A program made the position numbers and the translations under genes. Shown in pieces: positions 4,205 to 27,879 of a stretch of 34,305 nucleotides of DNA (position 1 is its first letter; each line of letters starts with the position of its first letter). Source of the DNA: Bryobacteraceae bacterium (GTDB lineage Bacteria; Acidobacteriota; Terriglobia; Bryobacterales; Bryobacteraceae); the NCBI GenBank assembly GCA_025980435.1, contig JAICXK010000023.1, positions 1 to 34,305 on the forward strand, written 5' to 3'. A model generated the notes under the pieces. It was given only the letters and a program-made list of their open reading frames with translations. It was not told the origin of the DNA and made no database searches.

Positions 4205-6060
4205 GTGCTGCGGGCCGGTCGCAAGGGTTCGCTTTTAAGGACCTTGCCACCCTCCTGAATCGTGTACAGCCGGTTGACGTCAAGATTCTGCAGCCGGTCC
4301 ACTTGTCCGCTGAGCCAGCGAATTTCCACCAGATCCACTTTGGCGGCCTGATCCAGGCCGAAGTGCATGCGCAGATCGTTCTGCGAGAAATAACTTCCGC
4401 CGCTGCGCAATTCATCGACCTGCTTAAGCGGTTTGGCGGCATCCGGCTTGTTCCGAGCCACAACCGTCACGCGGCTGCCGATACCTGTTCGATTCGATTT
4501 CACTCCCACGAGCTTGATCTTGATCCAGTTGCGCTTGAGCGTGGAGTCACAACGAAGAAGCTGCGGAATCGCATTGACGCAGTTTACGGCAATATCAATA
4601 TCACCGTCGTTATCGTAGTCCCCGAAGGCGCAGCCCCGCGCAGGCGCATTCTCGAGAATCCCGGGTCCGCCCTTGTCTGTAACTTCTTCGAAACGGCCGT
4701 TTTGAAGATTTCGATACAGGTACTTATGCTCGGCATACTTGAGGTCGGTTTTCGAGTTATCGACCTCGGGGTACACATGGCCGTTCGACATAAGAATGTC
4801 GAGCCAACCATCGTTATCCATGTCGAAGAAGCCGACACCCCAGCCGAGCAGGCGCGTGTTGACGCCGAGACCGCTTGGGTAAGTGCGATCTTCAAAGGAA
4901 GCATCGCCAAGGTTCGTGTAGAGCGAGTCCGTGTCACCGGCAAAATTCGTCTTAACGACATCCAGGTTGCCGTCACGGTTGTAGTCGCCAACGGAGACGC
5001 CCATGCCGGCTTGTGGCTTGCCTTCGGGAGACAGCGCCGCGCCGGATTCAATTGCGATATCGACAAATGTGCCGTCCTTTTGATTCTGATAGAGCGTGGC
5101 AGTGCTCGAATCGTTTGCAACGTAGATGTCCGGCCAACCATCGTTGTCCAGATCGGAAGCGGCGACGCTCAACCCGTAGGTGCCTTTCGTATTCCAGATG
5201 CCTGCCTTCTCGCTTACATCGCTGAAGCTTCCATCTCCGTTGTTGTGATACAGAATGTTCTTTCCGCCCTTTAGACCCGGCGGCCCGCAAGCGACAAGCA
5301 ATCCCTTATATGTGCAAGGGCCAGCTTCCGGCGGAGGCGCGGTCTTCAGATCAAAATCGACGTAATTGGCTACAAACAGGTCCAGGTGGCCATCCTTGTC
5401 GTAATCGACAAACGTGCAGCCGGTGTTCCAGCGGGTTTTTGGGCCGTGCTGAAGCAAGCCTGCCTCTTTCGTTACGTCCGTAAACGTCCCGTTCCCGTTA
5501 TTGCGATAGAGCGCGTTTTGGCCGTAATAGGTGACGAAAAGATCGTCGTGCCCGTCATTGTTGTAATCGCCGACACAGCAAGCCTGGCCCCACCCGGTTC
5601 GATGCTCCAGCCCGGATCCTTTGGTCACATCGGTAAACGTGCCGTCGCGATTGTTCTTGAACAGATGGCAGTGCGGCTCCTGCCCCGGAGGGAAGCCTTC
5701 CAACCGCCACCCATTCACCAGAAATACATCGAGCCAGCCGTCGTTGTCGTAATCGTAGAAGGCGAGCCCGCAGCCGGTGGTTTCCAGCAGATATTTGTTC
5801 TTGTGTTCGCCGCCGTAGATCGTCTTAGCCGCAAGTCCGGCTTCCTTCACTACATCGACAAAACTGAGTCCAAGGGGTGTCTCTTCGATAGGCGATTTCG
5901 GCCCTTTGGGCGCCGGCATGGCTTTGGCGTTGTAGCTGCGCTCGATGGGCCCCGGCAATTGCTGCGGAGGGGCGGCCATCGCAAGCAGATCCGCGAACGG
6001 AAGCACGAGCGCGCTTCGGCTGAGCGAACGAATGAAATCGCGTCTATGATTCTGTTTCAA
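4201..6060 (-). CDS. CRTAC1 family protein (FG-GAP/VCBS repeats plus ASPIC/UnbV C-terminus)
   Basis: Seven D-x-[DN]-x-DG-type loops (DYDNDGWLD, DYNNDGHDD, DYDKDGHLD, DLDNDGWPD, DYNRDGNLD, DMDNDGWLD, DYDNDGDID); ASPIC/UnbV motif (IKLVGVKSNRTGIGSRVTVVA...RSGGSYFSQNDLRMHFGLDQAAKVDLVEIRWLSG); RRDF-type N-terminus. Confidence 0.93.
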   Translation of the reverse strand: MKQNHRRDFIRSLSRSALVLPFADLLAMAAPPQQLPGPIERSYNAKAMPAPKGPKSPIEETPLGLSFVDVVKEAGLAAKTIYGGEHKNKYLLETTGCGLAFYDYDNDGWLDVFLVNGWRLEGFPPGQEPHCHLFKNNRDGTFTDVTKGSGLEHRTGWGQACCVGDYNNDGHDDLFVTYYGQNALYRNNGNGTFTDVTKEAGLLQHGPKTRWNTGCTFVDYDKDGHLDLFVANYVDFDLKTAPPPEAGPCTYKGLLVACGPPGLKGGKNILYHNNGDGSFSDVSEKAGIWNTKGTYGLSVAASDLDNDGWPDIYVANDSSTATLYQNQKDGTFVDIAIESGAALSPEGKPQAGMGVSVGDYNRDGNLDVVKTNFAGDTDSLYTNLGDASFEDRTYPSGLGVNTRLLGWGVGFFDMDNDGWLDILMSNGHVYPEVDNSKTDLKYAEHKYLYRNLQNGRFEEVTDKGGPGILENAPARGCAFGDYDNDGDIDIAVNCVNAIPQLLRCDSTLKRNWIKIKLVGVKSNRTGIGSRVTVVARNKPDAAKPLKQVDELRSGGSYFSQNDLRMHFGLDQAAKVDLVEIRWLSGQVDRLQNLDVNRLYTIQEGGKVLKSEPLRPARST

Positions 6061-10494: not shown

Positions 10495-12255
10495 ATGACT
10501 TTCGCCGAGCATCTGAAAAGCCAGCTCGACATCGTCGATGTCGTCGGCCAATACGTCCGCCTGAAGCGGCAGGGCGGTGGTTCGCGCTTTGTGGGCTTGT
10601 GCCCATTCCATTCGGAGAGAACGCCGTCTTTTGGAGTACACAGCGCGTTGCAATACTACAAGTGCTTCGGCTGCGATGCAGCGGGTGACGTGTTCAAATT
10701 CGTGCAGCAGATTGAGAGCCTTACGTTCCCCGAAGCCTTGAAGCTCCTGGCGGAGCGGTATGGCATTCCCATGCCGGAGCGGCAGAGGAGCGACGATCCG
10801 GAGGCGCAGCGGCGTGCGGCGCTTTTTGAAATGCACGAGATCGCAGCCGAGGTGTTCCAGAGCAATCTACGGGGCGCGGCAGGAGCGGCTGCGCGCAGTT
10901 ATCTGGAATCGCGCGGCGTATCCCGCGCCGCCATGGACGAGTTTCGTCTGGGGCTGTCCGAAGCGTCCGGCCAACAACTGGTGCACCGTTTGCAGAAGTT
11001 CGGCCCAGCACTGCTGGAGGAATCGGGCCTTGCCATCAAGCGCCAGGAAGGCGGGTTTTACGACCGTTTTCGTGCCCGCCTGATGTTTCCCATCCATAAT
11101 GAGTCGGGCAAACTGATTGCGTTTGGCGGCCGTGCGCTGCGCGCGAACGACGAACCGAAGTACCTGAATTCGCCCGAGACGAAGATCTACAAAAAGTCGA
11201 CTATCCTGTATAACCTGCACCGCGCAAAGATCGACGCCCGCAAGAACGACCGCATCATCCTGGTGGAAGGCTACATGGACGTGATCGGTGTCTATTCAGC
11301 CGGGATTCATGAGGTGGTCGCCAGCAGCGGAACGGCCCTCGGCGTGGAACAGATCCGGTCCATCAAAAGACAGGTTTCGATGCAGCAGGCCAGCGCCGGC
11401 CAAATCATACTCAACTTCGATCCCGACCCGGCGGGTGCTCGTTCCACCGAGAAGTACATTTCTCTCCTGCTCGCGGAAGGCCTGCGCGTTCGCGTGCTCG
11501 AGATTCCGGAAGGATTGGATCCGGACGAATACATCCAGCAAGCCCCAGCAGATGGCTATCGCAAGCTGCTCGAAACCGCGGTTTCCTATTTCCACTGGCT
11601 GGCGGATCGAGCGCGCTCCAAATTCGATATGCGTACAGCTGAAGGCCGCATTGATGCATTCAAATTCATGGAGCCGGCCATCCAGCAAGTAAGCAATCGC
11701 CTGGAGCGAGCAGCCATCGCGGGTGAAATGGCCGAATACCTGAATGTCGATCGCGACGTGATAGGGCGCATGTTCCGCCAGAACCCGATTCCGAACCCGG
11801 CTGCGAAATCGAAAGAGTTCGCTTCCGCTGTGCCGCCAAATGAGAAGCTCCTTATCTGGTGTCTGCTGGCGAGCCCGGATGCCCGCGCCGTGATCCGGCA
11901 GTATCTGTCGAATGCGAATCTGCTTGATCTGCTGGATTTGAGGAGCATCTTCGAGGCCGTCGTGCATCTGGATGACGACGTTCCATTTACTCTAGAAGTC
12001 TTGGCAGCCGCCCTGGAACCGCGCTTACAGCGGATTCTTTCCGAAATCAGCTTCTCGGATTGCGGAATTCGGGAAGAGGATGCCGCCGAGCAGGCACTTC
12101 ATTGTTTAAAAGCATTGGAATCCAAGGCTAAGAGCGCAAAATATGAGGCCCTACGCCGGCAGATCCGGGAGCTCGAACGGTCGGGAAATTTCCAGGAAGC
12201 GCTGCGTTTGGCCGATGAGTTAGACAGTTTAAGAACCCGATCCCCAGGGGCGTAA
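10495..12255 (+). CDS. dnaG: DNA primase
   Basis: CHC2 zinc finger (CPFHSERTPSF...YYKCFGCDAAGDVFKFV), TOPRIM region (IILVEGYMDVIGVYSAGIHEVVASSGTALG; LNFDPDPAGARS); followed by rpoD. Confidence 0.97.
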   Translation: MTFAEHLKSQLDIVDVVGQYVRLKRQGGGSRFVGLCPFHSERTPSFGVHSALQYYKCFGCDAAGDVFKFVQQIESLTFPEALKLLAERYGIPMPERQRSDDPEAQRRAALFEMHEIAAEVFQSNLRGAAGAAARSYLESRGVSRAAMDEFRLGLSEASGQQLVHRLQKFGPALLEESGLAIKRQEGGFYDRFRARLMFPIHNESGKLIAFGGRALRANDEPKYLNSPETKIYKKSTILYNLHRAKIDARKNDRIILVEGYMDVIGVYSAGIHEVVASSGTALGVEQIRSIKRQVSMQQASAGQIILNFDPDPAGARSTEKYISLLLAEGLRVRVLEIPEGLDPDEYIQQAPADGYRKLLETAVSYFHWLADRARSKFDMRTAEGRIDAFKFMEPAIQQVSNRLERAAIAGEMAEYLNVDRDVIGRMFRQNPIPNPAAKSKEFASAVPPNEKLLIWCLLASPDARAVIRQYLSNANLLDLLDLRSIFEAVVHLDDDVPFTLEVLAAALEPRLQRILSEISFSDCGIREEDAAEQALHCLKALESKAKSAKYEALRRQIRELERSGNFQEALRLADELDSLRTRSPGA

Positions 12256-12371
12256 CCGTGTTGTACTATGAGAAATCGAGGAAACGAGGGGCCTCCCCGA
12301 TACATATAGCCTGTTGTTTTTTGGGAAGCTTTTTTGCCAACGATCGTGTAACTGATGGATGAAGGCTGTTG

Positions 12372-14024
12372 ATGCAAAACGGTAACGACAAGGGCTTCGT
12401 TCTGTATGACGATGTCAGGGGAGTCGTGCCCGATGAACTGGCAAGCGGCGGTGATCTCAACGATCTGTTTGCCGACCTGGAGAGTCCTCCCGTTGAGCTG
12501 CTGGACGAATCCAAGGAGTTCGACAAGAAAGAAGAAGAATTCGACGAGCTTTCGGAGCTCGACCTCTCGCCCGGCGCTCTGGATAAGAGCAACGATTCCG
12601 TCCGGGTCTACCTGCGAGAGATGGGCATGGTTCCGCTCCTCACGCGTGACGGCGAGATCGAGCTCGCAAAGCGAATCGAGCGGGGCGAAAGGGCCGTTCG
12701 CAAGGCGCTCTCCCGTTCGCACCTTGTCGTCCATCTTCTCCTCGAAACGAGACACAACATCGAACGAGGCGCCGTCCCGATTCTCGATATTCTGCAGGCG
12801 CCGGATGCGCACGACGGGCATGAGGACGATAATGCGCTCACGCATCTTAAGGAGGAATTTCTTCAGGCTCTGCACGCGATCGAGAAGCTGTACCGTAAAT
12901 CCCAGCAAGTCGAGCAGAAGCTGATCAGTATTTCCCGGACTATGAAGGCGAAGCAGCATCGCAAGCTGCGCTTCGAATATGCCCGCCTGATGGTCACGAT
13001 CTCACGTCACATACGAGCACTCCCAATCGCCGCGCGTTACCAACGGCGCCTCAGCGAGGCCCTGCGGCAAGTTGTCGACAACTTGAGGCCGCTTGAGCAG
13101 GAGATCGCGCGCTTGCAGCGCAGAATGGAGACGCCCTCCGCTACCGAATCCGGGTCCGTTTCCAGCATAAAGAAGGAGCTGAAGACGCTTTCCGCTCATT
13201 TGCAAGGGTTAGAGGACCGCTCGGGAACCAGTGCGACTGAGTTGCGCCGAACCCTCCAGATTGTCGAGAGGGGAGAAACGGAAACGGATGAAGCCAAGAA
13301 GCGGCTCATTGAGGCGAATCTTCGGCTGGTGGTTTCCGTGGCGAAGCGGTATACAAATCGGGGCATGCAATTCCTGGATCTGATTCAGGAAGGCAATATT
13401 GGACTTATGCGCGCCGTGGATAAATTCGATTACAAACGCGGCTACAAGTTTTCGACGTACGCCACGTGGTGGGTTCGGCAGGCGGTAACGCGCGCCATTG
13501 CGGACCAGGCCCGCACCATTCGCATTCCGGTGCACATGATCGAAACCATCAACAAGCTCGTGCGGCTTCAGCGCATTATGCAACAGGAGTTAGGCCGGGA
13601 ACCGACCACGGAAGAGCTGGCCGTTCGCATGGAACTCCCGCCCAGCAAAATACGCCGGGTCCTTCGAATTTCTCAGGAACCGATCTCGCTACAGACCCCG
13701 GTCGGCGAGGAAGAAGAATCGAATCTGGGCGACTTCCTGGTTGATGGCAGGATGGTCTCACCGTCGGAAGCGGTCATTAATCTGAATCTCCGGGAACAGA
13801 CTGCCGAGGTACTGAAAACGCTCAGCCCGCGGGAAGAGAAGATCGTTAAGATGCGGTTTGGCCTGCAGGATGGCAGCGAGCACACCCTCGAAGAGGTAGG
13901 CCAGAGCTTCGCCGTTACCCGGGAGCGCATTCGTCAGATCGAAGCCAAGGCCCTTCGCAAGCTGCGCCACCCCAGCCGCAGTCACCGTTTGCGCAACTTC
14001 CTGGAAAACGGCGCACCATCTTAG
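12372..14024 (+). CDS. rpoD: RNA polymerase primary sigma factor (sigma-70)
   Basis: Region 1.2 ([29 protein letters not shown]), region 2 ([73 protein letters not shown]), region 4 ([53 protein letters not shown]). ATG 12372 preceded by AAGG. Confidence 0.97.
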
Positions 14025-14144: not shown

Positions 14145-15023
14145 ATGCGTCTGCGCAGCGTGCTTTTCGCGACCTTGCCGAGCCTGGCGCTCTTCAGCGC
14201 GCTCTGCGCGACCGTGCCGCTTTCGGGTCCGGAAAACGTTCCCGACGACGCCAGCAAAGTCGGGCTGCGCACGTCGCGAAAGGAGCAGAAGCCGGGTGTG
14301 TTTCGCGAATATCCAGGTTGGGAGTACAACAATTTTCCGCTCCCTCCCGATGCGAACGTTCCCGGCGAATGGGTGTTTGCGCGGTTCATGTATAGCGCCG
14401 TTCCCACGTGGCGCGGGCGTCTGAATAACTGGACCATTGATTATCCTCGTTCAGACCGTCATCTTTCGGCGGCAGTGCGCCGGCTCACACGGATTCAGAC
14501 ACGATCGGTCGAGCAGCCGGTGGCCGCCGAAGACGGCGACGACATCTACAACTGGCCCTGGTTGTACGCGGTTGAGGTTGGCCATTGGGATCTCACGGAC
14601 CTGCAGGCGTCAAAGCTGCGCGATTTTTTGCTGCGCGGCGGCTTTTTTATGTGCGACGATTTTCACGGGACAATCGAATGGGAGACCTTTGTGGCCAGCA
14701 TGAAGCGAGTGTTCCCCGACCGCCCCATCGTGGACCTGCCCAGCACTAATCCGATTTTTCACACCGTCTACGATCTGGACGATCGCTATCAGGTACCGGG
14801 CGAGCAGTTTGTGTATACCCATCGCAGTTTTGAGAAGGATGGATATGAAGCGCGATGGCGCGGCATCTACGACGATAAGGGCCGGGTGATGGTAGCCATC
14901 TGCCACAACATGGATCTGGGCGATTCCTGGGAGCACGCCGACAATCCTCTCTACCCGGAGCAATTTTCCGCGCTGGGGTTTCGGATCGGTATCAATTATC
15001 TGGTCTATGCCATGACCCATTAG
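14145..15023 (+). CDS. DUF4159 domain protein with signal peptide
   Basis: Signal-like N-terminus; EWVFARFMYSAVPTWRGRLNNWTIDYPRSDRHLSAAVRRLT...LRDFLLRGGFFMCDDFHGTIEWETF resembles DUF4159; context with VWA/MoxR genes. Confidence 0.82.
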   Translation: MRLRSVLFATLPSLALFSALCATVPLSGPENVPDDASKVGLRTSRKEQKPGVFREYPGWEYNNFPLPPDANVPGEWVFARFMYSAVPTWRGRLNNWTIDYPRSDRHLSAAVRRLTRIQTRSVEQPVAAEDGDDIYNWPWLYAVEVGHWDLTDLQASKLRDFLLRGGFFMCDDFHGTIEWETFVASMKRVFPDRPIVDLPSTNPIFHTVYDLDDRYQVPGEQFVYTHRSFEKDGYEARWRGIYDDKGRVMVAICHNMDLGDSWEHADNPLYPEQFSALGFRIGINYLVYAMTH

Positions 15024-15038
15024 GAGCGGGCAACACAG

Positions 15039-17294
15039 GTGTTCGAGTTTTTATTCAAATATCCGGCCAGCGTTTTCTCAAAGGGTACTTTTGTGCTGCT
15101 TGGATCCTGGCCGAAATGGGCGCTGTTTGCGGCAATCGCCGCGGCCGCGGGGATTCTAGCCTGGGCGATCTGGCGCAGGCGGGCTCAATTCGCGCCATCA
15201 CTTCGCGGGATGCGGGTGATCGCCATCTGGGGACTTCAAGCGCTTACCCTGACGCTGCTGCTGATTGTGCTTTGGCAACCCGCCATCAGCGTCACATCGC
15301 TCCGGCCACAGCAAAACATCGTCGCGGTCGTGATCGACGAGAGCCGCAGCATGGGCTTGGCCGACATGGGCAAGCCACGTGAACAGATCGCTGCGGACCT
15401 TCTGAACAACGGCTTGCTGAAGCGGCTGGGGACTCGGTTCCAGGTGCGGCTGTACCGGCTCGGCGCCGGCCTGGACCGCATTCCGGATACTTCCGGACTA
15501 CAGGCGAATCAGCGCGCAACCCGAATCGGGAAAGCGCTGCACCAGATTGCGGATGAATCGTCCACTTTGCCGATCGGAGCCGTCGTTCTGCTAAGTGATG
15601 GGTCGGACAATACAGGCGGAATCGACGTGGATACCATGACGGCTCTGGAACAGCGTAAGCTGCCGGTAAGTACAATCGGCATCGGCAGTCCTGAGTTGAA
15701 CAAGGATGTTGAACTAGACGGTTTCAGCGTGCCTTCCCGGGCATTGCCGGGTTCGCGGCTGCAGGCGCGAGTGAATATCCGGCAGAGTGGATTCGCGGGT
15801 AACCGCGCAAAGCTGGTGATCAGCGGTGGAGGGTCGATTCTGGGGCAGCGCGACGTGAAGCTCCGCGACTCGCCGGAACAGGTGGAGTCCGTCGAGTTCA
15901 GTGCGGGCAAGAGCGGGGTGCAGGAACTGGAAGCCCGACTCGATCCGCTGGCGGGTGAAACCAACACGGCGAACAATGAGCTCAGGCAGGTGCTTTCCAT
16001 CGACACGACAAAAAAGCGCATTCTCTACGTGGAGGGAGAGCCGCGCTGGGAATACAAGTTCCTCCGGCGCGCGGTGGAAGACGATCCGGCGCTCCACATT
16101 GTTTCGATGCTCCGGACCACCCAAAATAAGATCTATCGGCAGGGGATTGGCAACCCGAACGAGCTTGCTGATGGGTTCCCGAGCAAGCCGGAGGATCTGT
16201 TTGCGTATCAGGGCGTGATATTGGGAAGCGTTGAGTCTGCGTTCTTTACCCCACAACAGCAGCAATCGCTTAAGGATTTTGTCGATCGGCGCGGCGGAGG
16301 ACTGCTTTTTCTCGGCGGGCGATGGGCTCTAAGCGACGGAGGGTATAACGTTCCTCCATTCACCGAATTGCTGCCTGTAAACCTGCCGCAGCGAAAGAAC
16401 ACGTTTCAGCGAAGCTTTGTAGCGGCCGAACTCACCTCCGCCGGCAGGACCAGCTTGATCTGCCGAATCGAGAACGATCCCGAAAAGAGCGCGGAGCATT
16501 GGGAGGTTCTTCCGTACCTTGCGAATTATCAAGACCCCGGAACTCCGAAGCCTGGCGCTGTGGTACTTGCACGGGTCGATGCGGGTGGAACCCGAGTGCC
16601 CCTGCTGATTACCGAGAATTACGGACGCGGCCGCACCGCGGTATTCGCCACAGCCGGAAGCTGGCGCTGGCAGATGCAGCAGCCGGTCACCGACATGAGC
16701 CAGGAAACCTTCTGGCGTCAATTGCTTCGCTGGGAAGCAGGCGCAACGCCCGGGCCGGTGGTCGCTTCAACTCCTGATGCCTTGTTAGAAGACGATGGCC
16801 GAATCCAACTGCGCACAGAAGTCCGCGACAAGGCCTATTTGCCGGTCAGTGATGCGGACGTGCAAGCGGATATCGTTGAACCGGACGGCTCCTCGGAATC
16901 GATTTCCTTACGGCCGGATCCTCTTGCCCAGGGCGTTTATTCCGCAACCTGGGATGCAGCGAAAGATGGATCCTACGTGGCGGAAATCAAGGCAAAGAGC
17001 GGGACACAAATGCTCGGAAGCGACGTTCTGACCTTCCGGCGGGAAGACGGAGTAGCTGAGAATTTTCATCGTGAACAGAACCGCGAACTGCTGCAGAAAC
17101 TAGCCGCCGAAACCGGAGGCCGCTACTATACGCCGCGCACGGCGCGACGGCTCCCGGATGAAATTTCGTATTCAGAGGCGGGCATTACATCCCGCGAGAT
17201 TAAAGATCTGTGGGATATGCCGGCGATCTTCCTCCTGATCCTCATGCTTCGCTCTGGCGAGTGGCTTCTGCGCAGAAGGTGGGGAACGGTATGA
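15039..17294 (+). CDS. Membrane VWA domain protein with GATase-like domain
   Basis: Two N-terminal TM segments; VWA MIDAS DESRS (VVIDESRSMGLADMG) and VVLLSDGSDNTGG; GATase-like GVILGSVESAFFTPQQQQSLKDFVDRRGGGLLFLGG; C-terminal TM. GTG start. Confidence 0.85.
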   Translation: MFEFLFKYPASVFSKGTFVLLGSWPKWALFAAIAAAAGILAWAIWRRRAQFAPSLRGMRVIAIWGLQALTLTLLLIVLWQPAISVTSLRPQQNIVAVVIDESRSMGLADMGKPREQIAADLLNNGLLKRLGTRFQVRLYRLGAGLDRIPDTSGLQANQRATRIGKALHQIADESSTLPIGAVVLLSDGSDNTGGIDVDTMTALEQRKLPVSTIGIGSPELNKDVELDGFSVPSRALPGSRLQARVNIRQSGFAGNRAKLVISGGGSILGQRDVKLRDSPEQVESVEFSAGKSGVQELEARLDPLAGETNTANNELRQVLSIDTTKKRILYVEGEPRWEYKFLRRAVEDDPALHIVSMLRTTQNKIYRQGIGNPNELADGFPSKPEDLFAYQGVILGSVESAFFTPQQQQSLKDFVDRRGGGLLFLGGRWALSDGGYNVPPFTELLPVNLPQRKNTFQRSFVAAELTSAGRTSLICRIENDPEKSAEHWEVLPYLANYQDPGTPKPGAVVLARVDAGGTRVPLLITENYGRGRTAVFATAGSWRWQMQQPVTDMSQETFWRQLLRWEAGATPGPVVASTPDALLEDDGRIQLRTEVRDKAYLPVSDADVQADIVEPDGSSESISLRPDPLAQGVYSATWDAAKDGSYVAEIKAKSGTQMLGSDVLTFRREDGVAENFHREQNRELLQKLAAETGGRYYTPRTARRLPDEISYSEAGITSREIKDLWDMPAIFLLILMLRSGEWLLRRRWGTV

Positions 17295-18214
17295 GGTTGC
17301 TGCTGCTATTGGCTGCTGCCGCCGTTTCCGCGTCCGGTGCAAACTATTTCGTTACGATCGCCGGCTTGGGCGGAACACCGGAATATGAGGCGCAGTTTGC
17401 GAAATGGGCTTCCGATCTGGACCACGAATTAAAGAGTAACGGGCCCGCTGCCCGCGTTACGACATTGAGCGGAAATGCTGCTACGCGGCAGCAGATCGAG
17501 CGCGCTCTGATCACGATCGCTTCGGAAGCCAGGCCGGAAGACTCCGTCGCTCTTTTGCTGATCGGGCATGGAAGCTTCGACGGCACGGATTACAAATTCA
17601 ACGTGCCAGGCCCTGACGTGACCGCCCGCGATTTTGCGCGCCTGTTGAATGCTATTCCGGCGAAGCGCCAACTGGTCGTGAATATGACGAGCTGCAGTGG
17701 AGCATCCCTCCCTGCCCTGGCAAGGAAAGATCGTATTGTGATCACCGCAACAAAATCCGGGACCGAAAAGAATGCAACTGTTTTTGCGCGCTACTGGGTA
17801 GACGCGTTGAAGGATCCGGCGGCCGATGCCGATAAGAACGGAACTGTTTCCGCCCTTGAAGCGTTCCGTTACGCGGAAGGTAAAACCAACACATATTTCG
17901 AATCGGAGAAACTACTCGCCACAGAGCACGCCATGCTCTCCGATTCCGGTTCTGCCAAGGCGGTTCACGATCCGAAGCCGGAAAACGGGCAGGGGCTCAT
18001 CGCGGCTGCTTTTCCTCTGATGCGGCCCGAAACCGGAGTTGCGAGGAATCTTGGGCCGGAGAAGCGAAACCTGGTAACCAGGAAGCAAAACCTTGAAGCA
18101 GAGATCGATCGGCTGAAATATCGTAAGGCGGCGATGCCCGCGGATGACTACAGGCAGCAGCTCACAGCGCTGCTGCTGGAACTTGCGAAAACGCAGGCGG
18201 AGATCGACCGGTGA
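17291..18214 (+). CDS. Caspase/legumain-like (clan CD, C13-like) cysteine peptidase with EF-hand-like loop
   Basis: Signal peptide MRLLLLLAAAAVSASGA; candidate catalytic His in LLIGHGSFDG (codon 17567-17569) and Cys in NMTSCSGAS (codon 17693-17695); EF-hand loop DADKNGTVSALE (17825-17860). ATGA overlap with upstream gene. Confidence 0.75.
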   Translation: MRLLLLLAAAAVSASGANYFVTIAGLGGTPEYEAQFAKWASDLDHELKSNGPAARVTTLSGNAATRQQIERALITIASEARPEDSVALLLIGHGSFDGTDYKFNVPGPDVTARDFARLLNAIPAKRQLVVNMTSCSGASLPALARKDRIVITATKSGTEKNATVFARYWVDALKDPAADADKNGTVSALEAFRYAEGKTNTYFESEKLLATEHAMLSDSGSAKAVHDPKPENGQGLIAAAFPLMRPETGVARNLGPEKRNLVTRKQNLEAEIDRLKYRKAAMPADDYRQQLTALLLELAKTQAEIDR

Positions 18215-20415
18215 AACCGGCAATCTGCACCTTGGCCTTCTTAATTCTCGCGGGGCGGACCGCCTGGTCCGCGGCCGACCCCCCGGTCGGTCCATCTGAT
18301 CAATGCCAAAACCTGCAGCACCACGGCCAACTCGCCCAAGCGCAGGCGTGTTTTCAGACGCTCTCGCAGAATCAGAATCCCTTCCAGAGCGCCGAAGGAT
18401 ATTTCGGCCTCGGTCTCTACGACCAGGCGAACGATCAGTTTCGGCTCGCGGTGAAGGAGCAGCCAAAATCGGCGCAGGTGCGGAGCGAGTGGGGACGGTT
18501 GTACCTGGAGCATTATCAACCAGGTGATGCCGCGAAGCTGTTCGAGGAGGCTCTCGAAATCGATCCAAGCGATGCGCCGGCCTATCTTGGCCTTGCGCGT
18601 GTGGCGGCCGGACGCTTCGATAGCAAGGCAACCACGTTAGCCCAGGAAGCGCTCAAGCATGACCCGAAGTTGTTCGAAGCACATGAACTCCTCGCCTATC
18701 TGGCGCTGGAGGACGGAGACGCAAAGCTCGCGTCCGAGGAATCGCAGAAGGCATTGGCTGCGAACTCCGAGGCACTAGACGGAATGGCGGTATTAGCGTC
18801 CATAGACTGGCTCAACGGCCTTCCGCAGTCGCAGTGGATGGATCGCATCCTGAAGATCAATCCTGTTTATGGCGAAGCCTACGCGACCGGAGCGCATTTC
18901 TTTGAGATTAACCGCCGGTACGACGAAGCCATCCAGTATTACCGTAAGGCGCTGGCGCTGAACGGCAAGTTGTGGCCGGCGCGCTCGCAGCTTGGCGTCA
19001 ATCTGATGCGCCTCGGGAATGAAACCGAAGCGAAGCAGGAACTCGAGCGCTGCTATGAGGCGCACTATCGTGATCCGGAGACCGTCAACTCACTTCGCCT
19101 GCTGGATACGCTGGGAGACTACGAGACGTTTAAGAGCGGTTCGGTCGAGATCGTTCTGCAGAAAAAGGAAGCGGCATTATTGCGGCCCTATATTGAACCG
19201 GAACTGCGGCGTGCGCTGGCGACCTACGAACGAAAGTACAAGATGAAGCTGCCGGGGCCGGTTCGGCTGGAAGTCTATCCGAATCACGAAGATTTCGTCG
19301 TCCGCACGCTCGGTTTGCCGGGACAGGGAGGGCTGCTGGGTGTCACGTTCGGCCTGGTCGTCGCCATGGACAGCCCGTCGGCAAGACCTCCGGGCGAATT
19401 CAACTGGGCCAGCACGATGTGGCATGAGCTAAGCCACGTATATGTACTGACGGCCACGCATCACCTGGTACCGCGTTGGTTTACCGAAGGTCTCGCTGTC
19501 CATGAGGAGGGTGCCGCGTCTCCGGATTGGGGTGACCGCCTGACGCCCGAGATCATCTCCGCTCTACAAAAGAAACAGCTCCTGCCTGTGCTGCAACTCG
19601 ATCGTGGATTTGTACGTCCACAGTACGCGAGCCAGGTACTAGTGTCCTATTACCAAGCCGGCAAGATTTGCGATTTCATCTCCGAAAAGTGGGGCGATGA
19701 TGCCATTTTGGGTATGATCCACTCCTATGCGGCGCGCAAAACCACGGCGGAAGCGATTCAGGACAACCTGCACGAGAGCGCGGCTGCATTCGACAAAGAG
19801 TTCTGCGCCTGGCTCGAACAGAAAACGGGCAGCACGGTACGTCATTTCGACGACTGGAAACGCGGCATGAAGGCTGCCTACACGGATATTCAGAGCGGTA
19901 AGAAGGACGATGCTCTCCACGAGGCGCTTGCCGCTCGCGATTTCTATCCGGATTATGTTGCAAACGGCAGCGCATATGAACTGATCGCCACGGCGCTTCT
20001 GGCAAAGAACGACAAGACCGGAGCAATTCAGAATCTGGAGCATTATCGCGATTCCGGCGGCACAAATGTTGAAACGCTGAAAAAGCTGGCCACGCTTGAG
20101 CACGAAGCGAGCTCAAACAAGCAGGCCGCCCGTACGCTGGCTAAACTGAACTGCATCTATCCCGAAGACGAGGCGATCCATCGAACCTTCAGCTCGATCC
20201 TCCTGGCCGGCGGGGACGCCAATGATGCCGTTCGAGAAGCGCAGGCCGTCGTCGATCTTCATCCCGCCGATCAGGCCGACTCGCATTACCAGTTGGCGAT
20301 GGCCCTACGCGCCGCTCACCGGCCGAGCGAAGCCAAGGACCAGGTGGTTCTCGCCCTCGAAGCCGCACCGGACTTCAAGCCGGCGCAGCAACTTCTCCTT
20401 CAATTGAGCCAATAA
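18211..20415 (+). CDS. TPR protein with HExxH gluzincin-like (peptidase MA-like) domain
   Basis: N-terminal TPRs; MWHELSHVYVLTATHHLVPRWFTEGLAVHEEG (HExxH plus downstream Glu); C-terminal TPRs; GTGA start/stop overlap with upstream gene; signal peptide. Confidence 0.85.
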   Translation: MKPAICTLAFLILAGRTAWSAADPPVGPSDQCQNLQHHGQLAQAQACFQTLSQNQNPFQSAEGYFGLGLYDQANDQFRLAVKEQPKSAQVRSEWGRLYLEHYQPGDAAKLFEEALEIDPSDAPAYLGLARVAAGRFDSKATTLAQEALKHDPKLFEAHELLAYLALEDGDAKLASEESQKALAANSEALDGMAVLASIDWLNGLPQSQWMDRILKINPVYGEAYATGAHFFEINRRYDEAIQYYRKALALNGKLWPARSQLGVNLMRLGNETEAKQELERCYEAHYRDPETVNSLRLLDTLGDYETFKSGSVEIVLQKKEAALLRPYIEPELRRALATYERKYKMKLPGPVRLEVYPNHEDFVVRTLGLPGQGGLLGVTFGLVVAMDSPSARPPGEFNWASTMWHELSHVYVLTATHHLVPRWFTEGLAVHEEGAASPDWGDRLTPEIISALQKKQLLPVLQLDRGFVRPQYASQVLVSYYQAGKICDFISEKWGDDAILGMIHSYAARKTTAEAIQDNLHESAAAFDKEFCAWLEQKTGSTVRHFDDWKRGMKAAYTDIQSGKKDDALHEALAARDFYPDYVANGSAYELIATALLAKNDKTGAIQNLEHYRDSGGTNVETLKKLATLEHEASSNKQAARTLAKLNCIYPEDEAIHRTFSSILLAGGDANDAVREAQAVVDLHPADQADSHYQLAMALRAAHRPSEAKDQVVLALEAAPDFKPAQQLLLQLSQ
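18255..18290. repeat. Tandem GC-rich hairpins inside a signal-peptide coding region
   Basis: GCGGACC-GCCT-GGTCCGC (18255-18272, perfect 7-bp stem) and CCGACC-CCCC-GGTCGG (18275-18290, perfect 6-bp stem), in frame with the TPR-peptidase gene. Confidence 0.5.
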
Positions 20416-20416
20416 C

Positions 20417-21445
20417 ATGTCTACCCTCACGAGCACACCCGTCGTTGAATCCGATGTTCGCGCCCGCGTGACCCGCTTCCACGACGCCCAGAACGCGATT
20501 AAACGAGAGGTTCAAAAGGTCATTGTGGGTCAGGAAGAGGTGATCGAGCACGTCCTCATCTCTCTATTCGTGGGCGGCCATTGTCTGTTGACCGGCTTGC
20601 CGGGAACGGCGAAGACCCTGCTGGTGCGTACCATGGCCCGCACGCTGGGCCTGAAGTTCAACCGGATTCAGTTCACTCCCGACCTTATGCCGTCCGATAT
20701 CACGGGAACCGACATTATTGAGGAAGACTCGACGACCGGCCGCCGCACCTGGACCTTTGTTCCCGGACCGATCTTTTCGAACATCCTATTGGCTGATGAA
20801 ATCAATCGGACCCCGCCAAAAACGCAGTCGGCCCTGCTGGAGGCTATGCAGGAACTGTCATGCACCGTTCGCGGGCATCATTACGGAATCGACGCCCCGT
20901 TCTTCGTGCTGGCAACGCAGAACCCGATCGAACTGGAAGGTACCTATCCGCTGCCGGAGGCGCAGCTTGACCGGTTTCTGTTTAATACCGTACTCGATTA
21001 CCTTTCCTCTGAAGACGAATTGAAGGTGATCGACCTTACGACGACCACACTTCTGCCGCAAGCGGAGGTGATTACGAATGGCGAGGAAATCCTCGATTTT
21101 CAGCAGCTCGTACGGATGACGCCGGTCGCGGAATCGGTTGCCCGGTATGCCGTCGATCTGGTGCGCGCCACGCGGCCAAGCGCGAACGGAGGGGGACCGG
21201 AGTTCATTCGTAAATACGTCAATTTCGGAGCCAGCGTCCGCGCGGTGCAGTTTCTCGTGCTCGGGGGCAAGGCGCGCGCACTCATGCACGGGCGGTTCCA
21301 TGTCTCATATGATGACGTTCGCGCCTTGGCTATCCCGATACTGCGGCATCGGGTGTTGCTGAACTTCCACGCGGAATCCGATCGGGTCAACTCCGATGAG
21401 ATCGTGCGCCGTCTGCTGGAGGCCATGCCGGCTCCGCGCGGCTGA
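20417..21445 (+). CDS. MoxR family AAA+ ATPase
   Basis: Walker A GLPGTAKT, Walker B ILLADEINRTPPKTQSALLEAMQE, ATQNPIELEGTYPLPEAQLDRF. Confidence 0.96.
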   Translation: MSTLTSTPVVESDVRARVTRFHDAQNAIKREVQKVIVGQEEVIEHVLISLFVGGHCLLTGLPGTAKTLLVRTMARTLGLKFNRIQFTPDLMPSDITGTDIIEEDSTTGRRTWTFVPGPIFSNILLADEINRTPPKTQSALLEAMQELSCTVRGHHYGIDAPFFVLATQNPIELEGTYPLPEAQLDRFLFNTVLDYLSSEDELKVIDLTTTTLLPQAEVITNGEEILDFQQLVRMTPVAESVARYAVDLVRATRPSANGGGPEFIRKYVNFGASVRAVQFLVLGGKARALMHGRFHVSYDDVRALAIPILRHRVLLNFHAESDRVNSDEIVRRLLEAMPAPRG

Positions 21446-21499
21446 GATGGAGACTTGGTAAGGTCGGCTTGCCCGGCCTGAGTAAAGAGGTACGGCGAA

Positions 21500-22399
21500 A
21501 TGCAGACCGAAACCATCAACCGTTTTCTCGATCCTGCCGTTCTGGCCGGCATCTCCAGCCTGGACCTGGTAGCGAAGACGGTTGTCGATGGTTTTCTTGC
21601 AGGCCTGCACCGCTCACCCGATTTCGGCTTCAGCCAGGAGTTCGCTGAGTACCGCGCGTACACTCCCGGCGACGATCTGCGGCAGGTGGACTGGAATGTG
21701 TTTGCTCGCACCGAACGGCCTTACCTGAAACGCTACCGCGGCGAAACGAACACCGCTTTGATGCTGTTGCTGGATGCCAGCGCCAGCATGGGATTCGGCT
21801 CGACGGCGGTAAAGAAATTCGATTATGCCCGGTATTTGGCTGCATCCCTGGTCTATCTCGCTCACCTTCAGCGCGACAGCACCGGTCTGATCGTGTTTCA
21901 CGATCAGGTGGCGAATGTTCTGCAGCCATCCGCCCGGCAAGGCCAGCTAGTGCGGTTGCTTCACGGCATCGGTGAGGCGCAGCTCGGCAAACGTACCGAT
22001 TTCAGACGGCCGTTTCACGACCTCCAGCGCATTCTGAAGCGGCGCGGGATCACGGTCCTTATTTCTGATTTTTTCGAAGCACCGGAAACGATTGTCAAGA
22101 CAGTAGAGCCTCTGCGGTTCCGCGGCAACGAACTGATCCTGTTTCATATTCTGGACCCGGCCGAGATTGCTCCCAAACTCTCGGCCCCCGCGCTCTTCGT
22201 CGATATGGAGACCGAAGATGCGATTGAAACGTCTCCCGACTACGTAGGCGGCGAGTACCGGCACAAAATAGCGGCGCACATTGAGGGTCTGCGGTCGAAA
22301 GCGCAGGCCGCCGGCATCGATTATTTCCTTCTGAGGACGGATCGCCCGCTGGATGAGGGCTTGCGCGAATATTTCACGATCCGCCGGGGGAGGCTGTAA
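21500..22399 (+). CDS. DUF58 domain protein (VWA-like, MoxR-associated)
   Basis: DUF58 motif EFAEYRAYTPGDDLRQVDWNVFARTERPYLKRYRGETNTALMLLLDASASMGFGS; intact DxSxS. Confidence 0.95.
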   Translation: MQTETINRFLDPAVLAGISSLDLVAKTVVDGFLAGLHRSPDFGFSQEFAEYRAYTPGDDLRQVDWNVFARTERPYLKRYRGETNTALMLLLDASASMGFGSTAVKKFDYARYLAASLVYLAHLQRDSTGLIVFHDQVANVLQPSARQGQLVRLLHGIGEAQLGKRTDFRRPFHDLQRILKRRGITVLISDFFEAPETIVKTVEPLRFRGNELILFHILDPAEIAPKLSAPALFVDMETEDAIETSPDYVGGEYRHKIAAHIEGLRSKAQAAGIDYFLLRTDRPLDEGLREYFTIRRGRL

Positions 22400-24388
22400 G
22401 TGGGTTTCTTGTCGCCCTGGTTCCTGGCTGGAATCGCTGCCGTCGGCATTCCGCTGTGGCTGCACCTCCTGCGCCAATACAAGCGCACGCCCCAGCCGTT
22501 CAGCTCCCTGATGTTTTTTGAGCGCCGCGTGCAAAGCTCGGTCCGGCACCGGAGGCTGAAATACCTGCTGCTTCTCGCCCTGCGCTGCACTCTGCTCGCC
22601 TTGCTCGCGCTTGCGTTCGCCAATCCGTTCGTTAACCGGACCTCGACTTCGGTCGGCCGGCGTAAATTAACCATCATTGCGGTCGACCGATCATTCAGCA
22701 TGCGTTACGGCGACCACTTGAGAAAAGCAAAAATGCGCGCCCAGGCAATCGCGTCCGGGCTGCGAAGCCGCGACATGGCCCAGGTATTCGCAGTTGATTC
22801 GCGGGTGGAAGCAATGACGTCGCCGGAATTCAGCAAAGATGCCCTGCAAGCCGCAATTCAGGCGATTCAACCGACCGACCAGGCCAGTTCGTTTGGTGAA
22901 TTCGCGCGCGCTCTTCGCGTGATGGACCAGGAAAGCAATACGCGACTGGATGTTCATTTCATTAGCGACATGCAGCAGACCTCGATGCCGCCGGGATTCC
23001 GTGATCTTCAGGTAGGTCCGCACACAGCTCTAACCCTTTATTCGGTCGCATCCTCTAACGCCCCGAACTGGGCTGTCGAGAACGTCAATACTTCCGCTCA
23101 TGTGTACGATCCGAACCGGACTCGTTTGACCGCAACCATTGCGGGCTGGCAGACAGAAACTGCCGCACGCAAGGTCTCACTGGTGCTGGACAACAAAGTT
23201 CTGGCCAGCAAGGAAATCAACGTTCCGGCGAACGGGCGCACCCAAGCCGAATTCCTCTCCTTCGATGTTCCTTATGGCCCGCACAGAGGCGAGATCCGGC
23301 TCGAACCGGCGGATCAACTGCCTGACGATAATACTTTTCGTTTTTCCGTTGAACGCTCCGACCCGAAAAAGGTTCTCTTTCTCTACTCAGGGGGACGTGC
23401 GAAGGAATCCTTTTACTATAAAGCTGCCATGGAATCCAGTTCCGATACAGGGCTATTGGTTCAACCGGCGCCGCTGGAGCAAGCAACCACAATCGACCTG
23501 AGCAAGTTTGCATTTGTGGTGTTGAATGATCCTGGCGAGATGGATTCGGCCGCGGCTCAGGCAATTTGCAGCTATATCAGCCGTGGCGGCGCCGCGCTTA
23601 TCGCATTGGGACGGAATAGCGCCCAGCTTGGGAAAGTGCCCTTGGCGGGAGATCGCCTGAGCGGCCAACTGGAGACGCAGGGGGCGGCAAGATTCGATGC
23701 CGGAGACCCCGCGCTGCGCGGAGCCGGACAGTTCGATAACGTCCAATTTTTCCAGGCTGCTGGTCTCTCTCCAAAACCGAGCACCCGTGTAATCGCGAAA
23801 TTGGCGGACGGATCGCCACTGCTGATGGAAGAGCCTATGGCCGAAGGGCGCATGCTGATCTTCACCGCGGCGCTCGATACCTCGACAAGCGATTTCCCGG
23901 TGCACTCGTCGTTTGTTCCGTTCGTCGTGCAGACCGGGCATTATCTGGCGGGCTCTGAAGAGAATTCGCCGAGCGTTGTAGCCGGCACTACGGTCCCGCT
24001 CCGGCGCGCCCAGAATCAGGGCACCGCGGCGGATGTCATCGGTCCCAATGGGCAGCACGAACTCACCCTGAACGATGCCAGCAAAACCATGAACTTTGCG
24101 CTTTTGCAGGATGGATTTTATGAGATTCAGCGCGCGGACCGGCGGAGGCTTCTTGTCGCCGTGCATGCCGACCGGCGCGAATCGGACCTGCGTACAGTAC
24201 CACGTGAAACTCTCGCATTATGGCGCAATACTGGAAATGAGTCCGCCGCCTCGGAGACAGTGGGCGCCCAGAAAGAAACTCGACCCTGGGGCCTGTGGCG
24301 GTACGTGATGTTACTGGTTCTGGCCGCGGCAGTTCTGGAGTCCTTGTTTGCAAGGCGGTATCTGAAGGAAGAGAGGCAAACGGTATGA
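22400..24388 (+). CDS. BatA-like membrane VWA protein
   Basis: BatA N-terminal motif FLSPWFLAGIAAVGIPLWLHLLRQYKRTPQPFSSLMFFERR; VWA MIDAS DRSFS; C-terminal TM. GTG start directly after the DUF58 stop. Confidence 0.92.
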   Translation: MGFLSPWFLAGIAAVGIPLWLHLLRQYKRTPQPFSSLMFFERRVQSSVRHRRLKYLLLLALRCTLLALLALAFANPFVNRTSTSVGRRKLTIIAVDRSFSMRYGDHLRKAKMRAQAIASGLRSRDMAQVFAVDSRVEAMTSPEFSKDALQAAIQAIQPTDQASSFGEFARALRVMDQESNTRLDVHFISDMQQTSMPPGFRDLQVGPHTALTLYSVASSNAPNWAVENVNTSAHVYDPNRTRLTATIAGWQTETAARKVSLVLDNKVLASKEINVPANGRTQAEFLSFDVPYGPHRGEIRLEPADQLPDDNTFRFSVERSDPKKVLFLYSGGRAKESFYYKAAMESSSDTGLLVQPAPLEQATTIDLSKFAFVVLNDPGEMDSAAAQAICSYISRGGAALIALGRNSAQLGKVPLAGDRLSGQLETQGAARFDAGDPALRGAGQFDNVQFFQAAGLSPKPSTRVIAKLADGSPLLMEEPMAEGRMLIFTAALDTSTSDFPVHSSFVPFVVQTGHYLAGSEENSPSVVAGTTVPLRRAQNQGTAADVIGPNGQHELTLNDASKTMNFALLQDGFYEIQRADRRRLLVAVHADRRESDLRTVPRETLALWRNTGNESAASETVGAQKETRPWGLWRYVMLLVLAAAVLESLFARRYLKEERQTV

Positions 24389-27300
24389 CGGCGCTGAATC
24401 AACTGAATGAATACCTGCGGCGTCTGGAGTTGCGGCTCCGTCTCTTTACCGCCGCCCGCGGCGCTGCGGTAACCGCTGCCGCGGCGCTTATTCTGACGCT
24501 GGTCCTTATCTGGATTAGCAATCGCTACGAATTTGCCCAGCAGGTGGTGTTCCCGCTACGCATCCTGTTGTTCGTTTCACTCGGCTTTGCCGTCTCTTTT
24601 GCGCTCGCGGTACCGCTTCTGAGGCTGAACCGGCGCCGCATCACCCGGCTTGCCGAGCGCCGCTTTAGCGGCTTCGAAGAGCGGCTGCTTACGGTTACCG
24701 AACGGCCCGATTCCACAAATCCTTTTACGGAGCTCGTCGCTGAAGACGCGTTGCGAATCGCTCGCCAGCACCCGCCTGAGGAACTGCGATCACGGCGGCT
24801 ACTTGCCGTCTGCCTTGGCTCGGGAATTGTGGCCGTCGCCGTTCTGGCTTGGTTGATTACTTCCGGTCCGGGGTATTGGGGTTACGGCGCAGGGCTGCTT
24901 TGGACGGGCAATGGAAATCCCGGTAAGCGCCCGTTGTACGAAGTCACCGTACAGCCGGGAAACAAAACCGTACGCCGGAAATCGGACCAGGTTATCAACG
25001 CCCAACTCCTGAATTTCTCCGCCGATCGGGTGGTGCTGCATGCCAGATATCACGGGGCAACCAAGTGGGAATCGGCGCCGATGCAGCCGAAACAGAATGG
25101 AGCGGCGTACCAGTTCCTGTTTGCCGGGTTATCCGACTCGGTAGAGTATTTCGTCCAGGCGGACGCCGCGCGATCAAAACACTTCACTCTGACCGTCAAA
25201 GACCTCCCCGGCGTGAAAAGGGTTCGGGTCGCCGTTCACTTCCCCTCCGGATTGCATTTACGTGACGTAACGCAGGACCCGGGCGGCGACATTCGCGCCG
25301 TAGCTGGAAGTAAGGCCGATATATCCGTCCTGACGGATCGTCCCTTGGAGCGGGGCGTTCTGGTTCTGGAGGATGGATCGAAAATTGATCTGAAAGCGGC
25401 CGGAGGCAATTGGTTGAGCGCTCAACTCCCCATCAACAAAGACGGCTCATATCATGTGGCGGCGCTGGACGGCGGCGATACGGTTCGCATCAGTGATGAT
25501 TATTTTATCGAGGCAAAGAAAGATGAACCACCTTCGGTTCGTATTCTACGGCCGGGGCACGATCCGCACGTAAGCCCGATTGAGGAGGTCCCGGTTACCG
25601 TCGAGGCTTCCGACGATTTTGGCGTGGAAAACCTTGAACTGCATTACTCCGTAAACGGTGGCCCCGAGCAGATGGTTCCTCTCTTGAAGAAAAAGGACAG
25701 CAAGGAGACCGAGGGGACAACCACACTCTACCTCGAAAATTTCAAACTCCAGCCCGGCGACTTGATCAGCTTGTATGGAACTGCCCGCGACGCCAACTCG
25801 ACATCGCGCACCGAGATCGTATTTGCACAGGCCGAGCCATTCGATTTCAAGTTCAGCCAATCCCAGCAGGCGGGAGGTATGGGCGGTATGGGTATGGGCG
25901 GCCAAGATGGAGATATCTCAGAGCGCCAAAAACAAATCATCGCCGCTACCTGGAACGAGCTGAAGGATGGTAACAAAACGCGAGCGGCCGTGCAGGAATC
26001 TGCGCGCTTCCTTTCCGATCTGGAAGGCAAGCTTGGCCAGCAGGCCAAGACGCTTGCCGAGCGAATGGGCAACCGTGAGTTGGCTTCTCCCGGCTCGGAA
26101 TTCGAAACTTTCTCCAAAATGATGACACAGGCTTCCAGCGAAATGGACAATGCGGTGGGCCAGCTTAAGCCAGGCAAATGGCACGATGCCCTTTCGCCCG
26201 AACAGCGCGCCTTGCAATCGCTGTTGCGCGCGGAAGCCGTCTTTCGCAACATTCAGGTTGCGTTTGGGCAGAACGGCGGGGGCGCAGGGGGCAGCGGAGC
26301 GCAGCGCGATCTGGCCCGCATGTTCGATCTCGAGCTCGATACATCGAAAAACCAATACGAGACCCAACAGGGCGCGCCGCAATCTCAGGGCGATCAGCAG
26401 AAGGCGATTGACCAGGCTTTCGAACGCTTACAGATGCTGGCGCGCAGGCAGCAGGAGCTTGCAGCTCGGGACAACCAGCAGCAGGCGTTTGAACAGCGCT
26501 GGCAGGAGGAACAGTTACGGCGTGAGGCCGAAGAACTGCGCCGCCAGATGGAGCAGCTCTCGCAAAATTCTCATGGACAGCAGCAAGCAAGCTCTTCGCA
26601 GAGCGGGCAGCAGGGAGCGAGGGGTAGCCGCGGATCAAACTCGTCGAAAGAGAACCAGGATCTGGCTCGAGCCATGCAACAATCGCTCGATTCGCTCCGG
26701 AAGGCCGAGGATGAGATGCGCAAAGCGGTCAGCGAGCGTGATGCCTCCGCGCAGCAACGCGCGGCGACACAACTGGCCGAAGCCCAGGACCTGCTGAACC
26801 GCGCTCTGCACCGGCAGGCGGGAACATCTGTCGGGGACATGGCCGAGAAAGCCCGGCAGCTTGCGGACGCGCAGCGCGACCTCTCCAGCCGGGTCAAACA
26901 GATGTACGGGCGCTCCGGATTCAGAAGCAGATCGGGCGAGGGGCAATCGACTCTTCCCGATGGATCGAGTGAGATGCCGGAGATGAATGATCCGGAGAAC
27001 CCGCGGTTCTACGGTTATCGCCGGCGGTTCTGGCAGCAGGAACTGGAGCCAAGGCGTCCCGCAACTGCCCAGGAACGCCAGCTTGCAGGCGAAAAAGAGA
27101 AGTTGGCCCGGCAATTAGACCAATTGCAGCGCCAAATGCAGCAGCAGCAGCAAAACCTTGCCGGCACGCAGCCGGACGCCTCTGCGAAGATGCGCCAGGC
27201 CCTTTCCGACGCCGAAGAAAAAGAACTCGCGCTCCGGATGCAAAAGAATGCCGAGTGGATGCGGCAGGGCTATGGCGATCGCAACCTGGATATGGAGGAT

Positions 27301-27879
27301 AGCGTAACAGCGGGGCTCGACCAGCTTGCGCGCGAACTACGTGATACACAAGCCGCGCTGAACGCGGGATCTCCGGGCCAGGGTAAAGCGGATCAAAAGG
27401 AAGAGGAGGCTTTGTCGCAAGTGCGCGGCCTGCGGCAAATGCTGGAACAACAGCAGCAGACCCAGCAACAAGGGCGGCAGAACGGGAGTTCACCCCAGAG
27501 AGGCGGCCAGACGGCGCAAGGAGGTCAGTACAATCCGTCGGGAGGTGGAAATCCCGGCATTGATCGGCGCGGATTGCATGATGCGATCAATCAGCTTTAC
27601 GCGTTCCGGCGGCAGATTGATCCGCACGACCGCGCACTCTATAACTACCTGGATGGCACGCTTGGCTACTTGCGAGACCTCAATGCCCGCCCGGGAGTGC
27701 TCGATGCGGCTATCAGCCAGGATGCCGTCTCGAGCCTGGAGCGCCTGGAGATGGAACTAAGCCGGCGCGTCGGCGAGCCGGCAGCAGAGGGGGCCCGGCT
27801 TGCGGCGCCGGAACGTTCCCCTGAACAGTATCGCCAGGCGATTGCGGAATATTTCAAGAAGCTTAGCCAGCCGAAATGA
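24385..27879 (+). CDS. DUF4175-like large membrane-anchored protein with Gln-rich coiled coil
   Basis: Start MTALNQLNEYLRRLELRLRLFTAARGAAV with ATGA overlap (24385-24388); TM segments in the first ~200 aa; long Q/E/R-rich coiled-coil C-terminal half. Listed ORF start 24295 lies inside batA and is probably artificial. Confidence 0.82.
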   Translation: MTALNQLNEYLRRLELRLRLFTAARGAAVTAAAALILTLVLIWISNRYEFAQQVVFPLRILLFVSLGFAVSFALAVPLLRLNRRRITRLAERRFSGFEERLLTVTERPDSTNPFTELVAEDALRIARQHPPEELRSRRLLAVCLGSGIVAVAVLAWLITSGPGYWGYGAGLLWTGNGNPGKRPLYEVTVQPGNKTVRRKSDQVINAQLLNFSADRVVLHARYHGATKWESAPMQPKQNGAAYQFLFAGLSDSVEYFVQADAARSKHFTLTVKDLPGVKRVRVAVHFPSGLHLRDVTQDPGGDIRAVAGSKADISVLTDRPLERGVLVLEDGSKIDLKAAGGNWLSAQLPINKDGSYHVAALDGGDTVRISDDYFIEAKKDEPPSVRILRPGHDPHVSPIEEVPVTVEASDDFGVENLELHYSVNGGPEQMVPLLKKKDSKETEGTTTLYLENFKLQPGDLISLYGTARDANSTSRTEIVFAQAEPFDFKFSQSQQAGGMGGMGMGGQDGDISERQKQIIAATWNELKDGNKTRAAVQESARFLSDLEGKLGQQAKTLAERMGNRELASPGSEFETFSKMMTQASSEMDNAVGQLKPGKWHDALSPEQRALQSLLRAEAVFRNIQVAFGQNGGGAGGSGAQRDLARMFDLELDTSKNQYETQQGAPQSQGDQQKAIDQAFERLQMLARRQQELAARDNQQQAFEQRWQEEQLRREAEELRRQMEQLSQNSHGQQQASSSQSGQQGARGSRGSNSSKENQDLARAMQQSLDSLRKAEDEMRKAVSERDASAQQRAATQLAEAQDLLNRALHRQAGTSVGDMAEKARQLADAQRDLSSRVKQMYGRSGFRSRSGEGQSTLPDGSSEMPEMNDPENPRFYGYRRRFWQQELEPRRPATAQERQLAGEKEKLARQLDQLQRQMQQQQQNLAGTQPDASAKMRQALSDAEEKELALRMQKNAEWMRQGYGDRNLDMEDSVTAGLDQLARELRDTQAALNAGSPGQGKADQKEEEALSQVRGLRQMLEQQQQTQQQGRQNGSSPQRGGQTAQGGQYNPSGGGNPGIDRRGLHDAINQLYAFRRQIDPHDRALYNYLDGTLGYLRDLNARPGVLDAAISQDAVSSLERLEMELSRRVGEPAAEGARLAAPERSPEQYRQAIAEYFKKLSQPK

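Follow-up and report, generated by a model that had tools for sequence, protein, structure and literature searches.

What business does a caspase-like protein have among MoxR and VWA genes, and is it there as a protease? The locus that raises this question lies on contig JAICXK010000023.1 of a Bryobacteraceae bacterium (assembly GCA_025980435.1; phylum Acidobacteriota). This contig, 34.3 kb of a 5.1-Mb genome, is referred to here as the window, and all gene coordinates are window positions. Between 14145 and 27879 eight genes follow one another on the plus strand, and an earlier note had read them as one MoxR/VWA cluster with two predicted proteases built into it. New here is that a caspase-fold protein with a His-Ser pair (CASP) and one gluzincin are coupled to a MoxR/VWA envelope operon and co-inherited with it across the phylum. 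There is thus one credible peptidase in the set and not two, because the zinc site of the gluzincin is intact and CASP has no conserved cysteine. Searches of the open reading frames against Pfam and NCBIfam return the eight gene families that the earlier note had named:

14145..15023, plus strand: DUF4159 protein with an N-terminal signal or anchor, predicted periplasmic (PF13709, 4e-38).
15039..17294, plus strand: membrane-anchored VWA plus GATase1_like protein, VWA-GATase or VWAgat (PF07090, 2e-7; VWA_3, 2e-4, under that family's curated cut-off).
17291..18214, plus strand: CASP, a caspase/legumain-fold protein of 307 amino acids, predicted secreted (AlphaFold2 and Foldseek; in NCBIfam only a caspase match at E = 0.014).
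18211..20415, plus strand: TPR plus Peptidase_MA_2 protein (TPR-gluzincin), predicted secreted (PF13485, 3e-9; TPR families).
20417..21445, plus strand: MoxR AAA+ ATPase (AAA_3), cytoplasmic (PF07726, 9e-60).
21500..22399, plus strand: DUF58 (VWA-like) protein (PF01882, 2e-40).
22400..24388, plus strand: protein with a BatA N-terminal double-transmembrane region and a VWA domain (PF07584, 3e-16; TIGR02226, 1.5e-18).
24385..27879, plus strand: DUF4175 protein with N-terminal transmembrane segments and a long Gln-rich helical region (PF13779, 7e-9).

The genes are packed much as first described, with five of the seven junctions formed by a 4-base overlap or a distance of at most 1 bp: ATGA overlaps join VWA-GATase to CASP and BatA to DUF4175, a GTGA overlap joins CASP to the TPR gene, and the TPR/MoxR and DUF58/BatA gaps are 1 and 0 bp. 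The looser junctions are DUF4159/VWA-GATase (15 bp) and MoxR/DUF58 (54 bp). CASP starts at the ATG at 17291, within the stop of the VWA-GATase gene, and the longer reading frame from 17210 is merely mechanical. A scan for promoters and terminators inside the eight-gene unit returned nothing exceeding shuffles.

The first part of the question, whether the protease-like genes belong with the others, is answered by their relatives. Three families of the order supplied 20 neighbourhoods, in which gene order and strand are the same for all eight genes as far as the contigs reach, the exception being one locus (L044) in which DUF4159 was not found adjoining VWA-GATase. This order persists at amino-acid identities down to about 35–45%, and the 4-base overlaps recur at VWA-GATase/CASP (11/20), CASP/TPR (11/20) and BatA/DUF4175 (11/19). 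A wider GTDB set comprised at least 80 loci, all from Acidobacteriota, with spread beyond the phylum seen from plasmid records only. When the 20 order neighbourhoods are combined with 80 of the GTDB loci, VWA-GATase, CASP and TPR-gluzincin stand in that order in 99 of 100, and in the one remaining case two overlapping frames sort in reverse. The closest CASP among the matches listed, at 70% identity, comes from Bryobacterales/Terriglobia metagenome-assembled genomes of Acidobacteriota. A regular variant across the phylum has DUF4159 shifted to between TPR and MoxR. All eight genes also lie in a row on plasmid 1 of Gemmatirosa kalamazoonensis (Gemmatimonadota; L208:11246-26374), in the order VWA-GATase, CASP, TPR-gluzincin (HELAH), DUF4159, MoxR, DUF58, BatA, DUF4175. 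Hence the earlier note's expectation, that both protease-like genes would be found adjoining MoxR/VWA genes in relatives, holds in the order, in the phylum and on this plasmid. The Gemmatirosa CASP gene is split across two frames, through a genuine frameshift or through an error in sequencing. On a Planctomyces plasmid, DUF58-BatA-VWA is present and a CASP gene was not found.

Presence and absence tell the same story. Among 297 Acidobacteriota genomes, CASP occurs in 85, VWA-GATase and TPR-gluzincin each in 86, and BatA of this type in 90, with thresholds picked by us so as to exclude distant paralogues and gene fragments. Because the genomes are related, the counts do not represent independent events. 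The first three genes occupy identical genome sets (85/297) save for one genome with a CASP fragment, and the genomes with BatA beyond this common set are mostly incomplete assemblies. The whole set is missing from most sampled genomes of one family of the same class (f4) and must therefore have been lost or gained as a whole and not through the drift of single genes. Across much of Acidobacteriota, the eight-gene set has been inherited or lost jointly. It is single-copy in nearly all genomes of the order, and its genes are under strong purifying constraint, with synonymous divergence (dS) near saturation and too near it for an exact ratio of nonsynonymous to synonymous change (dN/dS). Several Acidobacteriota families (L167, L172, L176, L178, L180) carry a second, paralogous cluster of DUF58-BatA-DUF4175-VWA-CASP, and in several of these genomes a TPR-gluzincin gene is found outside the main cluster, on the same contig as the second-cluster CASP and some 10 kb away from it.

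It could be argued that the two halves of the cluster, MoxR/DUF58/BatA and CASP/TPR, merely share a promoter and have no common mechanism. In family f17, CASP-TPR indeed lies on another contig than VWA-GATase/BatA. However, the genes co-occur almost perfectly even in genomes that have them in separate places, and VWA-GATase remains paired with CASP in the second paralogous cluster and in another phylum, which makes this reading improbable.

We turn to what CASP is. Its AlphaFold2 model (mean predicted local distance difference test score, pLDDT, 87) gave 145 Foldseek matches in the PDB at E≤0.001, the best being legumain (9e-9), followed by MALT1 and caspases, which confirms, at the level of a predicted structure, a caspase/legumain fold (clan CD, caspase-haemoglobinase). 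CASP has no Pfam match and hence no recognisable orthocaspase p20 (Peptidase_C14) sequence, and its fold is nearer to legumain. The protein shows a signal peptide, His93, Ser134, an EF-hand-like loop (DxDKNxxxSxxEA) and a C-terminal helical hairpin. With legumain (C13) and caspase/MALT1 (C14) it shares the fold (Foldseek E 9e-9 and 2e-7) and the His-Gly motif; it differs from them in having no catalytic Cys, at an identity of about 12%.

The absence of this cysteine is a property of the family. In 142 distinct CASP sequences the dyad histidine is invariant (H93, 142/142, followed by G94 in 141/142), and residue 134 is Ser in 136 and never Cys, the other six having Asn, Pro, Thr or Ala there; a conserved Cys was sought along the whole alignment and found at no position. 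Both the HMMER alignments of a phylum-wide CASP profile with three Cys-bearing clan CD proteins of the same phylum and a profile comparison by hhalign bring Ser134 into line with the catalytic Cys, the Ser-Gly that follows being in register too. CASP therefore has no Cys where clan CD peptidases carry it, at the end of the fourth core strand, and joins a caspase p20 fold to a substituted His-Cys dyad, the mark of pseudo-orthocaspases. The window's genome has, at another site (L187, G000:C109), a caspase homologue of the ordinary kind, its GHG and DACHSG motifs intact. Because the same genome encodes such a His-Cys homologue, the loss of Cys is particular to the CASP family.

The residue next to Ser134 deserves separate consideration, as in the window it is Cys. 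One might suppose that the CASP members with Cys135, the window's included, are active cysteine proteases and that the remainder lost activity: the window's TSCSG resembles the caspase QACxG, Cys occupies this position in 28 of the 142 sequences, two other classes included, and the alignments are not unanimous, as one weak match to metacaspase-4 among PDB profiles, which contains an indel, sets 135 on the Cys. This is distinctly improbable, given that the HMMER and hhalign alignments put Ser134 in that place with the conserved SG following, and that residue 135 swaps freely among Ala (76), Ser (35) and Cys, with at least 29 changes on the tree, at least 12 of them between Cys and another residue. 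Cys135 was accordingly rejected as a catalytic residue, and neither register leaves the family a conserved Cys.

A second possibility is that CASP is an active serine hydrolase in which Ser134 has taken over from Cys as nucleophile, partnered by the invariant His93. Few positions of CASP are as conserved as these two, Ser134 changes only three times on the tree against at least 29 times for its neighbour, and the cleft residues D97, E159, D179, E190 and E212 are retained. Nonetheless, in the six members without Ser134 the gene persists and the His is kept, no serine peptidase family appears among the eight clan CD families listed in PMC12445089, and Cys-to-Ser caspase homologues are usually taken as pseudoenzymes (PMC6426788). 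We consider serine-type activity unlikely, and marginally less likely the fuller proposal in which a working Ser134-His93 dyad would make CASP a serine-type caspase-fold hydrolase under a MoxR/VWA membrane machine, paired with a zinc peptidase. For CASP, holding on to proteins is more probable than cleaving them. Of the two proteases first predicted, then, the TPR-gluzincin stands, with its catalytic site kept, and CASP, with Ser at the nucleophile position, does not.

The bacterial pseudo-orthocaspases offer a parallel in that they too have the caspase fold and another residue, often Ser, in place of the catalytic Cys (PMC6426788). They differ in their dyads, mostly Tyr-Ser, Tyr-Ala, Phe-Ser, Gln-Cys or His-Ala in contrast to the invariant His with Ser of CASP, and in their hosts, which are alphaproteobacteria and cyanobacteria; Acidobacteria are absent from the text of that paper.

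The active sites of the other members are well preserved. In the TPR protein, HExxH (residues 405–409) is present in 131/131 and the downstream Glu426 in 132/132 of the copies examined, the arrangement of gluzincins (peptidase MA). The metal-ion-dependent adhesion site (MIDAS) DxSxS is intact in all three VWA-type proteins of the window (DESRS, DASAS, DRSFS), and MoxR has intact Walker A and B motifs, as had been noted before; in relatives the Walker motifs are invariant and MIDAS is invariant or nearly so (106–108/108 for VWA-GATase; D96, S98 and S100 of BatA at 99/99 each). A MoxR of this kind beside DUF58 and a BatA-type double-transmembrane VWA protein is characteristic of Bat/cmd-type operons. 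DUF4159 has 52–56 invariant residues among order relatives, DDFHG included, and its AlphaFold2 model, although moderate (pLDDT 68), matches the solved Hoch_4089 structure (4i66) with a Foldseek E of 1e-8. On Pfam matches only, DUF4159, the GATase1-like region and the BatA C-terminal region are possibly all degenerate glutamine-amidotransferase-like folds.

As to where these proteins reside, a scan for transmembrane segments gives DUF4159 and CASP an N-terminal signal peptide or anchor, places transmembrane segments in VWA-GATase (two, N-terminal), BatA and DUF4175, and finds none in MoxR and DUF58. By eye, the TPR protein has a signal-like N-terminus that falls under the scan cut-off, and VWA-GATase a probable C-terminal transmembrane segment. 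By the positive-inside pattern, the VWA domains of VWA-GATase and BatA are predicted to face the periplasm; the VWA domain of Borrelia BB0173 was placed there by experiment (PMC5700661). An envelope location, as had been proposed, is thus likely, judging from these predicted signals. The same evidence does not support the further proposal that MoxR chaperoning controls the proteases: as MoxR and DUF58 have no transmembrane segment or signal and CASP and the TPR protein look secreted, direct chaperoning would need to act across the inner membrane.

Closest among known systems are the Bat operons and RL3499-RL3502 of Rhizobium leguminosarum. The latter carries DUF58 and BatA/DUF4159/DUF1355-type genes and is not known to include a caspase-fold or gluzincin gene. 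The Bat (aerotolerance) operons of Bacteroides, Leptospira and Borrelia likewise hold MoxR, DUF58, BatA-type VWA and TPR proteins in one operon, whereas DUF4159, VWA-GATase, DUF4175, the caspase-fold protein and the HExxH protein are not described in them. Systems of these kinds are linked to stress resistance and envelope integrity: RL3499-RL3502 (cmdA-D) is reported as a broadly conserved MoxR operon whose mutants have envelope and morphology defects (cited in PMC5700661 and PMC3893208), and MoxR of R. anatipestifer is tied to heat and oxidative stress (PMC11834572). A literature search to which most subscription papers were closed returned no description of MoxR/VWA combined with a caspase-fold protein and a gluzincin.

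It is also worth weighing the suggestion that the locus serves conflict or cell death, akin to the MoxR-vWA ternary systems that join these two components to trypsin-like and, in some, caspase-like effectors (PMC7159879). Their third components are given there as VMAP, iSTAND, FtsH and beta-propeller, unlike this cluster, and DUF58, BatA, DUF4159 and DUF4175 are not named in the text of that paper. Among the cluster's Pfam matches there is no VMAP, iSTAND, double FtsH or beta-propeller, and a weak bpMoxR match reflects the shared AAA+ domain. The set has no variable effector and is inherited in the manner of housekeeping genes, near-universally single-copy in the order and strongly constrained, with a CASP that has no Cys. 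We regard a conflict role as very improbable, and the cell-death function raised earlier finds no support. A defence system was also considered and rejected, PADLOC having given nothing but generic AAA matches.

The simplest account, in our analysis, would be a machine of the Bat/RL3499-RL3502 kind with an added, fixed periplasmic arm. To this reading, a Bat/cmd-type MoxR-DUF58-BatA inner-membrane operon joined to a non-cleaving caspase-fold binder and the TPR-gluzincin, we assign a probability of roughly 0.5. MoxR and DUF58 would form a cytoplasmic, ATP-driven remodelling pair driving a complex in the membrane, made up of BatA, VWA-GATase and DUF4175, with its VWA domains in the periplasm. 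CASP may dock beside VWA-GATase, its constant gene neighbour, via the C-terminal helical hairpin, and its cleft (His93, Ser134, and S1-loop and Ca-loop residues) would bind exposed peptides without cleavage. Substrates would then be passed to the TPR-gluzincin, the sole peptidase of the set, or CASP might instead restrain it. The outcome would be envelope protein quality control or maturation under stress, and quality control is probably the role of the system. Several points weigh against this account. Ser134 is about as conserved as expected of a catalytic residue, and the lack of Cys is not proof of a lack of activity; the topology assignments come from a hydropathy scan; and CASP and VWA-GATase are found on separate contigs in a few families (f17, f77). 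MoxR/VWA envelope operons occur widely, and this cluster supplies, across two phyla, concrete candidate partners for what such machines act on. It also offers a bacterial example of a caspase fold that has probably been adapted for binding, in a setting other than cell death.

Upstream of the cluster, on the same strand, lies a dnaG-rpoD macromolecular synthesis pair (10495–14024), which ends 120 bp ahead of DUF4159:

10495..12255, plus strand: dnaG.
12369..14024, plus strand: Sigma-70 (RpoD-like) gene, outside the system.

The sigma gene was rejected as a cluster member, being upstream in only 2 of the 20 order neighbourhoods. Further away, the minus strand at 4201–8316 encodes a pair of proteins, one of FG-GAP/UnbV_ASPIC type and one with TPRs and a cytochrome c554-type domain.

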